NCBI RefSeq assembly: GCF_000420725.1
Contig: NZ_ATVM01000004.1
Coordinates: 62,001 to 126,000, forward strand
Direction: 5' to 3'
DNA length: 64,000 nt
From: Marinococcus halotolerans DSM 16375
Lineage (GTDB): Bacteria; Bacillota; Bacilli; Bacillales; Marinococcaceae
Shown here: positions 51,220 through 54,266 of the stretch, piece after piece
Position numbering within the stretch: position 1 is the stretch's first letter
How the letters are laid out: the number at the start of each line of letters is the position of its first letter
Made by a program: the position numbers and the translations under genes
Notes under the pieces: model-generated
Databases searched by the model: none
Seen by the model: the letters and a program-made list of their open reading frames with translations, nothing else
Told to the model about the DNA's origin: nothing

Positions 51220-51357
51220 ATGGGAAAACCAACATTTACCCCTAACAACCGGAAGCGTAAAAAAGTACACGGTTTCCGTGCGAGAATGGGAACAAAGAAC
51301 GGTCGTCAGGTTTTGAAAAATCGTCGTCGTAAAGGTAGAAAAGTATTATCTGCATAA
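51220..51357 (+). CDS. rpmH: Ribosomal protein L34
   Basis: 45 residues, very basic: [19 protein letters not shown] then [20 protein letters not shown]. Component of the large ribosomal subunit. ATG 51220 follows TGAGGAGGTG 9 nt upstream. First gene on the plus-strand side of the origin, ahead of rnpA. Confidence 0.98.
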
Positions 51358-51456: not shown

Positions 51457-51819
51457 ATGAAAAAGCACAATCGTTTAAAAAAGAATCACGAGTTCAGCTA
51501 TATTTTTGCGCACGGAACTTCCGTTGCCAACCGGCAGTTTGTGCTTTATACCTTAAAAAGAGAGGAGCAGGTTCATTACCGGGCAGGCCTCACTGTCAGT
51601 AAGCGAATGGGAAATGCCGTCATGCGCAACCGGATCAAGCGCTATCTGCGCGAAGCTGTATCGGAACTCGAGCCCCGGATCCCGGGAGGCTACGACCTGG
51701 TAGTCATAGCGAGGAAACCGGTAGCGGATATGGATTACCATGAAACGAAAAAAAGTCTGACCCATGTATTTAAAAAAGCCGGTTTGTTAAACTCAGGTAA
51801 AGCAAAGCCCAAAAGGTAA
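51457..51819 (+). CDS. rnpA: Ribonuclease P protein component
   Basis: 120 residues, basic. The RNR signature is in TVSKRMGNAVMRNRIKRYLREAV (about 47-68). It supports the RNase P RNA in 5-prime processing of tRNA. Start ATG 51457 has GGGGG upstream. In most bacilli spoIIIJ follows directly; here there is a 217-bp gap and then jag. Confidence 0.97.
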   Translation: MKKHNRLKKNHEFSYIFAHGTSVANRQFVLYTLKREEQVHYRAGLTVSKRMGNAVMRNRIKRYLREAVSELEPRIPGGYDLVVIARKPVADMDYHETKKSLTHVFKKAGLLNSGKAKPKR

Positions 51820-52036
51820 ACAAGAAGCTGTTTTCGCTTCTGAATCGGCAGCGGCCGGGAGCGAAGATACTTTTAAAATAGAGGGATTTCCGCCGGCACT
51901 GAAGAAATTATTTACAGGGCCCATGGGAAATTAACATCAGAATTATTTTGCCCCTGCACGTACGTGCAGCATATGCATATAGATGTCCGCAATGAACGAA
52001 AAGCAGGTACTAAGAAACAAGGAGGGCGGGGTAACG
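51820..52036. other. Gap between rnpA and jag where spoIIIJ is expected
   Basis: 217 bp without a gene, where bacilli normally carry the yidC/spoIIIJ insertase gene of about 780 bp. No remnant of that protein is recognisable in the three plus frames. The gap has a 16-bp perfect palindrome CTGCACGTACGTGCAG (51954-51969) followed by ATATGCATAT, and a small AGAAGC/GCTTCT hairpin directly after rnpA. Confidence 0.8.
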
Positions 52037-52672
52037 GTGGACCAATCAATGAAGGTTTCCGGGAAAACAGTAGAAGAAGCTTTAGACACAGCTGTGCGGG
52101 AGTGGGAAACAACAATAGGCCGTATTGAATATCATGTGCTTGAACAGCCAAGAAAAGGGTTTCTCGGTATTGGAGCGAAGCAGGCTTCCATAGAAGTATT
52201 CCTTCGAATCGATCCTGTGGAGGAAGCGGCTGCATACTTAAAAGATCTGGTACAGGCTATGAATATAGAAGCAGAGGTGGAAGTAAAGATCTCAAGAAAG
52301 CATACTATGATGGAGATCAAAGGCTCTTCTCTGGGCCTTCTGATTGGAAAACGAGGAAAGACCCTCGATGCGCTCCAGCATCTTACGAACACCGCCGCCA
52401 ATAAGTACGCTGACGCCAAGCAGCATATTATAATTGACGCTGAAAATTACCGAGGGAAACGAAAAGAATCGCTGCAGCGGTTTGCCGAGCGCATGGCGGG
52501 GAAAGCTATCCGGGAAAATGGGACAATTAAACTTGAGCCCATGGACGCAGCGGAACGAAAAATTATTCATCAGACCCTGCACCAGCATAAAAATGTTGAA
52601 ACAACGTCGTCTGGAAAAGAACCAAGACGCCACGTAGTAATCACACCTGCTGCAAAAGAAAAGCAAAAATAG
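52037..52672 (+). CDS. jag: RNA-binding protein Jag (KhpB)
   Basis: 211 residues. N-terminal Jag domain (SGKTVEEALDTAVREWE... PRKGFLGIG), a KH type II domain with GLLIGKRGKTLDALQHL (about 105-120), and a C-terminal R3H domain with IKLEPMDAAERKIIHQTL (about 170). KhpB with KhpA binds RNA and affects cell size and envelope. GTG 52037 follows AAGGAGGG at 11 nt; ATG 52049 is an alternative. Normally cotranscribed with spoIIIJ, which is missing here. Confidence 0.92.
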   Translation: MDQSMKVSGKTVEEALDTAVREWETTIGRIEYHVLEQPRKGFLGIGAKQASIEVFLRIDPVEEAAAYLKDLVQAMNIEAEVEVKISRKHTMMEIKGSSLGLLIGKRGKTLDALQHLTNTAANKYADAKQHIIIDAENYRGKRKESLQRFAERMAGKAIRENGTIKLEPMDAAERKIIHQTLHQHKNVETTSSGKEPRRHVVITPAAKEKQK

Positions 52673-52889: not shown

Positions 52890-54266
52890 ATGGAAACAGA
52901 TACAATTGCCGCGATTTCCACTCCGAGCGGGGAAGGGGCTATTGCGATTGTCCGCCTGAGCGGAGACGAAGCGCTTGCTATTGCGGATCATGTGTATAAG
53001 GGCAAAAAATCTCTTCATGATGTGGAAACGCATACGATCCATTATGGGCATATTATCGACCCGGCGGACGGCTCCGTAATTGAAGAATCCATGATTTCTG
53101 TGCTCAGGGCCCCAAAAACATTTACAAGAGAAGATATCGTGGAAATTAACTGCCACGGAGGGCTGGTCTCGGTTAATCGTGTTCTTGATAACGTATTAAG
53201 TCAGGGAGCGCGGCTGGCGGAGCCTGGAGAGTTTACGAAACGTGCATTTTTAAATGGGCGTATTGATCTGACGCAGGCAGAAGGCGTCATGGACCTGATC
53301 AGAGCCAAAACTGACCGGGCCATGCAGAGTGCTTTAAAGCAGGTGGAAGGAAGACTTTCCGAACGGATCCGTAAGCTTCGCCAAAAGCTTCTCGAAACAG
53401 TGGCCAATGTGGAAGTGAATATTGACTACCCTGAATTTGATGCTGATGTTGTGACGACGAATGTTTTAAAGGAAAATGTAGCGTTTGTCGGCGAAGAGAT
53501 CGACCAGCTGCTCGTAACGGCGAGACAGGGGAAAATTATGCGGGAAGGGCTCGGCACAGCGATTATCGGCCGGCCAAACGTAGGAAAATCCTCCCTGATG
53601 AATAATTTGGTACATGAAAATAAAGCAATTGTAACGGAAGTGCCCGGCACTACAAGAGACGTGCTCGAAGAGTATGTAAACGTCCGGGGTGTGCCTCTTC
53701 GTTTAATTGATACCGCCGGCATACGTGAAACTGAGGATATTGTGGAAAAGATCGGCGTAGAACGCTCCCGCCAGGTGCTTCAGGAAGCGGAGCTGATCCT
53801 TCTTGTCATCAACAGCGCAGAGCCGCTGTCCGATGAAGACCGAGCATTATTTCAGGCAGTTCAGGGCATGAATGTTATTGTTATAATGAATAAAACGGAT
53901 CTTCCCAAACAGGTGGATGAGGAAGAACTCCGGGAGTATACATCCGGCCGGCCGATTATTGCCGCTTCTTTTCTGAATGATGAAGGCATCGACAGTCTTG
54001 AAGAAGCAATCGCCCATCTCTTTTTTGATGAAGGAGTAGAGGCAGCAGACATGAATTATTTGTCCAATGCCCGTCATATTGGGTTGTTGAACCAGGCAAA
54101 ACGTTCGGTAAATGACGCTTTGGAAGCCGTGGAAATGGGAGTGCCGGTAGACATGGTACAAATTGATATTACCCGGGCCTGGGAACAGCTCGGAGAAATT
54201 GTCGGAGAAAACGTGCACGACGGATTAATTGATCAGCTGTTTGCCCAGTTTTGTCTCGGAAAATAG
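52890..54266 (+). CDS. mnmE: tRNA modification GTPase MnmE
   Basis: 458 residues. N-terminal formyl-THF-binding domain ([25 protein letters not shown]), a helical domain split by a G domain (about 215-380) with [12 protein letters not shown], switch [16 protein letters not shown], and the C-terminal FCLGK with the essential cysteine. With MnmG it forms the cmnm5-uridine at U34 of several tRNAs. ATG 52890 after GGGAGGG. The leader has an ACGAAAA/TTTTCGT hairpin (52812-52849). Probably cotranscribed with mnmG. Confidence 0.97.

Follow-up and report, generated by a model that had tools for sequence, protein, structure and literature searches.

Background

In Bacillus subtilis, growth is supported by either of two YidC insertases, and sporulation needs YidC1, that is SpoIIIJ (PMC6827917). 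The second insertase, YidC2, is placed under the control of the MifM leader, which has 95 codons, a transmembrane segment at codons 10-34, arrest codons at 89-92 and a hairpin over the yidC2 site, and which induces YidC2 upon a fall in YidC activity (PMC6037786). A comparable arrangement is that of CliM in Clostridia, an open reading frame (ORF) upstream of yidC that encodes an N-terminal transmembrane segment and is followed by a stem-loop over the yidC start; it differs in its unrelated arrest motif, K-Y-x-I-W, and C. kluyveri has three yidC genes (PMC13183943). MifM homologues have been reported in 592 Firmicutes genomes (PMC10987492), a wide occurrence that limits the novelty of any further leader of this type, and the leaders described below may be among those already known. 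In the literature that was searched, the main text of PMC10987492 included, we came across no report of a genome whose sole YidC is preceded by a MifM leader. The new point is therefore one of context, namely an arrest-peptide-type leader that stands before a sole insertase; MifM homologues themselves are already widely known.

The locus considered here lies in a 64-kb stretch of the genome of Marinococcus halotolerans (G000:C4:62001-126000), which we refer to as the window. The original prediction was that yidC (spoIIIJ) is missing from its usual site between rnpA and jag, and that the cell must rely on another insertase which would also have to serve sporulation. We consider it probable that the ancestor of this lineage had two insertases, that it lost first spore genes and then SpoIIIJ, and that YidC2, behind a MifM-type leader, was left as the sole insertase.

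Loss of yidC between rnpA and jag

We compared 61 genomes, comprising that of the window, four others of the genus, 24 of the family and 32 of the order. Both rnpA and YidC are present in all 61, and in 55 of them YidC lies directly behind rnpA and before jag. The exceptions are the five Marinococcus genomes and that of Bacillus smithii (G039, see below). Within the window the interval between rnpA and jag is short and holds no yidC (Table 1), and a PF02096 search of the whole 64 kb found no YidC; both observations agree with the original prediction. Over the whole genome the same search returned a single YidC, on another contig. The count proved to be the same throughout the genus, with exactly one YidC match in each of the five Marinococcus genomes, never between rnpA and jag. 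A search with Jag matched records of Marinococcus luteus, an uncultured Marinococcus and M. halophilus at 80-91% identity, again with yidC absent between rnpA and jag; we take these to be genomes already in the sample (G002, G004 and G003, respectively) and do not count them as extra evidence.

Table 1. Features of the rnpA-jag locus (window positions) and of the yidC2 locus (contig or locus positions) in M. halotolerans
Feature	Position	Strand	Remarks
rpmH (presumed name; ribosomal protein L34)	51220..51357	+	Upstream neighbour; in-frame ATG 51220, behind a ribosome-binding site, taken as start (the listed ORF begins at an upstream TTG, 51139)
rnpA (RNase P protein)	51457..51819	+	PF00825 match G000:C4:113457-113780, E 7.8e-34
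Gap between rnpA and jag	51820..52036		217 bases; site of spoIIIJ/yidC in 55 of 61 genomes
jag (khpB)	52037..52672	+	GTG start; PF14804, E 1.5e-17
mnmE (presumed name)	52890..54266	+	Downstream neighbour, usual gene order
Sole YidC of the assembly	G000:C10:24676-25215		PF02096, 190.4 bits against a cut-off of 35; frame open
MifM-like leader ORF	L032:9198-9467 (G000:C10)	same as yidC2	89 codons; TTG start, strong ribosome-binding site

The window's genome is a draft in 56 contigs, and a yidC segment might have been dropped from such an assembly. The same gap is found, however, in all five Marinococcus genomes, one of which (G001) is assembled in three contigs; moreover, the locus is situated near base 113,800 of a contig of 229,121 bases, far from the contig ends and with its flanks intact, in an assembly with a completeness of 99.96. 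The agreement of five genomes rules out an assembly gap, and an artefact of this kind is next to impossible. The absence of yidC is a genuine loss at the level of the genus, and the sister genome of Marinococcus, G005, retains the rnpA-linked copy.

The interval itself can be aligned in four of the five Marinococcus genomes and has diverged in M. halophilus (G003). In the window AGGAGGGCGG, a good ribosome-binding site, precedes the GTG of jag at 52037, and this GTG and its ribosome-binding site are conserved in the five aligned Marinococcus sequences. We used 98 YidC proteins and the 3WO7 core as tblastn queries against the five gaps, each taken with at most 80 bases of jag, and among the best 12 rows there was no credible YidC remnant: all were weak matches over short stretches of the wrong strand, and they came from G001 and G004 only, the top row covering 36 residues at 33% with an E-value of 0.003 against a tiny target. 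A search of the 6-kb stretch around the gap (L118) with Rfam gave nothing at gathering thresholds, and scans of the gap and of the yidC2 loci for promoters and terminators gave counts near the shuffled expectation.

Identity of the remaining insertase

In G000, G001 and G002 the remaining yidC is flanked on one side by what we take to be a yheB/yheA pair and a lytic-enzyme-like gene, and on the other by genes that presumably encode a two-component system and PrsA. The second YidC of G005, G007 and G009, each of which has an rnpA-linked copy as well, has most of these neighbours in common; within the stretches examined, yheA and yheB were not found near the G005 copy, nor was the lytic-enzyme-like gene near that of G007. 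Many other family members carry their second copy in a similar setting, as does G030, which belongs to another family. The second copies of G033 and G038 were labelled 'x', the marker neighbours not being seen in the stretches examined.

We inferred a tree (FastTree) from 98 YidC proteins and the core of the B. halodurans YidC2 structure. All 55 rnpA-linked copies group in a single clade that contains none of the Marinococcus proteins (support 0.999), and the five Marinococcus proteins join the second copies of the family in a clade of 20 tips (support 0.992). A third group consists of 20 further copies (support 0.743) and was labelled YqjG-like, a label of our own given that no B. subtilis sequence is in the tree. 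All supports quoted are FastTree's own and are taken from unrooted trees. YidC frames shorter than 200 residues, which were two pieces of the second copy of G027, were left out, and the broken second copy of G022 was kept as a frame of 214 residues. The second copy of G033 falls with the YidC2 side of the tree and that of G038 at its base; the grouping of G005 with Marinococcus receives a support of 0.644 from the YidC tree taken by itself.

Judged by synteny and tree together, the remaining YidC of Marinococcus is the second paralogue of the family, YidC2, and not a relocated SpoIIIJ, so that the original prediction of a cell dependent on a paralogue encoded elsewhere holds. If the SpoIIIJ gene had moved to the prsA neighbourhood instead of being lost, exactly one YidC would likewise be left, and the Marinococcus protein does have a lipoprotein-like start and the groove arginine of TM1 (R74 of the ORF; the column has R in 98 of 99 rows and K in one). 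These features are also those of SpoIIIJ (YidC1) of B. subtilis, another PF02096 protein, on a comparison with the rnpA-linked copies of relatives; the Marinococcus protein differs from it in paralogue clade and in locus. Against a move, relatives that have both genes carry their second copy at this same place, and the tree sets the Marinococcus protein with the second copies and apart from all 55 rnpA-linked ones. On these two grounds a relocated SpoIIIJ was rejected as very unlikely. The NCBIfam equivalog model for SpoIIIJ scored 306.3 on the Marinococcus protein, for a cut-off of 377.

Among solved structures, the best match of the Marinococcus protein is YidC2 of B. halodurans (PDB 3WO6 and 3WO7; phmmer E 3.2e-70, residues 28-244). 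The match was not used for paralogue assignment because the rnpA-linked protein of G009 matches the same structure better (E 6.5e-78). In the tree, 3WO7 pairs with YidC2 of G030 (support 0.984), a gene with yheA, two-component system and prsA neighbours, and stands on the YidC2 side (24 tips, support 0.915); the branch that joins this pair to the YidC2 clade of the family has a support of only 0.184.

A leader reading frame before yidC2

In all five Marinococcus genomes 297 bases separate the lytic-enzyme-like gene from the longest yidC2 frame, and in all five a leader ORF ends 26 bases before that frame (Table 1). The arrangement is like that of mifM-yidC2 (yqjG) in B. subtilis, in that a small ORF with an N-terminal transmembrane segment lies just upstream of the second YidC and carries an acidic stretch a few codons before its stop; the position of the ORF and its N-terminal segment are also those of CliM. 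By hydropathy window only, the hydrophobic segment spans about residues 13-29 and is followed by 60 residues, and the protein ends in RHDDEDSSYFSS. The sequence DDEDS at residues 80-84 is a strongly negative five-residue window within residues 70-100, as sought in PMC10987492, and the acid centre lies at a distance of 53 from where the hydrophobic window ends, the published median of the MifM spacer between transmembrane segment and arrest site being 54 (PMC10987492).

Leaders were counted by a rule that asks for a hydrophobic window, an acidic window after residue 60 and a position before the gene, and that was formulated only once the leaders were known. By this rule, 20 of the 21 genes at the YidC2 locus are preceded by a leader, as are 14 of the 22 other copies without linkage to rnpA and none of the 55 rnpA-linked copies. 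The one gene at the YidC2 locus without a leader is that of G022, in which there is a stop inside the leader and yidC2 is broken. The YidC2-locus leaders have 87-103 codons, and all have in common K-[IV]-P and a run of acidic residues towards the end. Ten pairwise comparisons of the Marinococcus leader gave a dN of 0.010-0.044 and a dS of 0.037-0.452. When only the C-terminal part is considered, some pairs show less contrast (in the worst, dN 0.057 and dS 0.128).

These observations can be set against the possibility that the ORF simply encodes a small membrane protein, or serves as a passive leader that has a hairpin and no regulated arrest. NCBIfam and Pfam name no family for it, its C-terminal part is under no stronger constraint than the rest, and when compared by eye with the B. 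subtilis arrest consensus RIxxWIxxxxxMNxxxxDEED, the Marinococcus leader, with KIP...DDED, has the acidic end alone in common. With the upstream part of the consensus absent, the leader is a candidate member of MifM proper. A passive role is harder to reconcile with a leader before nearly every YidC2-locus gene, the single exception being broken in leader and yidC2 alike, and with the conserved K-[IV]-P, the acidic end and the narrow spacing between transmembrane segment and acid. Rfam gave nothing at gathering thresholds on the yidC2 locus (L001).

Two genomes show the opposite choice to that of Marinococcus: G022 (L069:7449-8093) and G027 (L077:7401-8215) have a broken second YidC and keep the rnpA-linked copy. 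The leader of G022 has the stop mentioned above, and that of G027 is intact.

Predicted hairpin over the yidC2 ribosome-binding site

The last codons of the leader are complementary to the yidC2 ribosome-binding site, and the centroid fold has an 18-pair stem with one bulge over AAGGAG. The likely start of yidC2 lies nine bases into the longest frame and is a GTG, with TTG in its place in G001 and G004. A hairpin over this site is a further likeness to mifM-yidC2 of B. subtilis, and in Marinococcus it is predicted to hide the ribosome-binding site. The median probability that the site is unpaired is 0.11 for the YidC2 group (21 genes), 0.21 for other copies without rnpA linkage (22) and 0.48 for rnpA-linked copies (55); at 0.33-0.35, the Marinococcus site is less hidden than that of most relatives. 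The hairpin region is also only mildly more stable than shuffled sequences (z = -1.45; 16 of 200 shuffles fold as well), which would suit a passive leader.

The pairing was further examined by exchanging arms between genomes. Among 14 leaders, with near-duplicate genomes left out, none of 5000 permutations of the 5' arms paired as strongly as the leaders' own arms; in a control of 14 sampled rnpA-linked genes 4950 of 5000 permutations did so, and there was no preference for the own arm. When the 5' arms of the five Marinococcus leaders were shuffled, 4, 4, 12, 12 and 22 of 2000 shuffles were as strong as the original. These figures refer to arms that had been widened to fit the Marinococcus hairpin seen in the fold. 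Under the first, narrower definition the Marinococcus pairing was unremarkable, with 111 and 153 of 1000 shuffles as strong, and the swap test, then of 15 rows, gave none of 2000 as strong. Pairing with the ribosome-binding site is thus kept although the arms differ between genomes, which speaks against a passive leader. Taking this together with the distribution and the conserved end of the leader, we regard a leader devoid of regulated arrest as unlikely.

A putative autoregulatory loop

Leader architecture, spacer and hairpin resemble those of B. subtilis MifM, and it is for this reason that we infer a MifM-type mechanism in which the sensor would autoregulate the sole insertase of Marinococcus; the leader likely works like MifM. 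The 89-codon leader would insert its one N-terminal transmembrane segment into the membrane via YidC. With YidC scarce, the ribosome would stall near the acidic DDED, the hairpin would be kept open and yidC2 would be translated; with YidC ample, insertion would pull the leader free and the hairpin would close. CliM has been shown to monitor YidC as an arrest peptide (PMC13183943).

The two circuits would differ in what they serve. In B. subtilis the mifM circuit switches on a backup, whereas in Marinococcus, which is without SpoIIIJ, the enzyme monitored and the target controlled would be one and the same gene. Since SpoIIIJ is gone, the sensor could report on YidC2 alone, and the circuit would serve autoregulation alone, by setting how much of the only insertase is made. 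If this is true, useful translation of an essential gene would take place mainly during ribosome stalling on its leader, and what was a backup alarm would have become a closed autoregulatory loop.

Sporulation genes and the order of losses

SpoIIIAE (PF09546) and SpoIVA (TIGR02836) were each found in 55 of the 61 genomes. The six in which they were not found are the same for both, namely the five Marinococcus genomes and G005, and a sentence in one review describes Marinococcus as non-spore-forming (PMC9781867). The original prediction had the remaining insertase take on the sporulation task of SpoIIIJ; this does not apply here, because key spore genes have been lost from Marinococcus and the insertase need not support sporulation, a task that seems to be gone. 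It is true that Spo0A is still encoded, and the principle of a takeover may hold in B. smithii, which forms spores and whose one YidC match is of YqjG type. For M. halotolerans itself a takeover is nevertheless highly improbable, given that neither SpoIIIAE nor SpoIVA was found in any of the five Marinococcus genomes and that the genus is so described in the review.

The Spo0A_C domain was found in 60 of the 61 genomes; it scores 114.7-126.7 bits in Marinococcus and G005, against 152.5-157.2 bits for the best copy of the others. This diverged Spo0A (G000:C8:49832-50146, and its counterparts in the other Marinococcus genomes and in G005) may indicate a role outside sporulation. In G040 there was no Spo0A_C match, yet SpoIIIAE and SpoIVA are present. 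SpoIIIAE and SpoIVA of G024 are in pieces (G024:C37:202173-203118 and 299760-301237), perhaps owing to sequencing errors.

G005 allows the loss of the insertase to be ordered relative to that of sporulation. It is the sister of Marinococcus with a support of 1.0 in a tree of 31 genomes based on up to 12 genes, and it keeps both the rnpA-linked YidC and YidC2. Because G005 lacks both spore genes and has both insertases, sporulation was probably lost before SpoIIIJ in this branch, as far as one genome can tell. The Marinococcus ancestor would have had a SpoIIIJ-type YidC between rnpA and jag, together with a YidC2 near yheA, the two-component system and prsA, behind a MifM-type leader. The simplest order would then place the loss of the spore genes in the common ancestor of Marinococcus and G005, and that of SpoIIIJ later, in Marinococcus, where the gene would have disappeared with no recognisable remnant and YidC2 would have become the only insertase.

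Bacillus smithii and the wider order

The remaining exception, G039, is the closed genome of B. smithii DSM 4216T; its second contig matches the B. smithii plasmid NZ_CP012025.1 exactly. Neither yidC nor jag was found between its rnpA and mnmE (L052:6661-7591), and its single YidC match belongs to the YqjG-like group of the tree. G039 keeps SpoIIIAE, SpoIVA and Spo0A, terminal or subterminal endospores are described for DSM 4216T (PMC4995803), and strain ET 138 has been shown to make spores (PMC4494709). Thus, the situation that had been foreseen for M. halotolerans, in which another insertase covers sporulation, may be real in B. smithii. The hairpin pairing test gave no support in this species, with 118 of 1000 and then 939 of 2000 shuffles as strong.

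We see the chances as evenly balanced that Marinococcus and, independently, the B. smithii lineage have both lost the SpoIIIJ-type insertase and been left with an arrest-controlled backup as their only YidC, with B. smithii sporulating without a SpoIIIJ-type insertase. The two lineages would offer a natural experiment in which a YidC2/YqjG-type insertase replaces SpoIIIJ, in Marinococcus apparently for growth and in B. smithii apparently for sporulation as well, and another in which the enzyme watched by a MifM-type sensor is the product of the gene it controls. Both questions are usually tested with B. subtilis mutants.

A larger sample of the order was used for scores only. Among the matches listed, and by the best E-value per genome, a lone YqjG-type YidC occurs in one of 199 genomes, that of G039; lone YidC2 copies are indistinguishable by score. 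In G156 both YidC matches (G156:C7:1864-2402 and G156:C14:771-1321) are broken frames with stops, possibly the result of poor assembly, since one or other of the two ought to be essential.

G061, a genome of the same family as G039 (94% complete, 6% contamination), has one YidC match, and it lies close to the G039 match. In the region from rnpA to the mnmE side there was no credible trace of YidC among the matches listed; the same region carries a decayed jag (L143:about 947-1333), of which roughly the C-terminal half matches Jag of G005 (E 4.7e-25). The ORF upstream of YidC encodes RKESSRDNED in G061 and RKESARDNED in G039.
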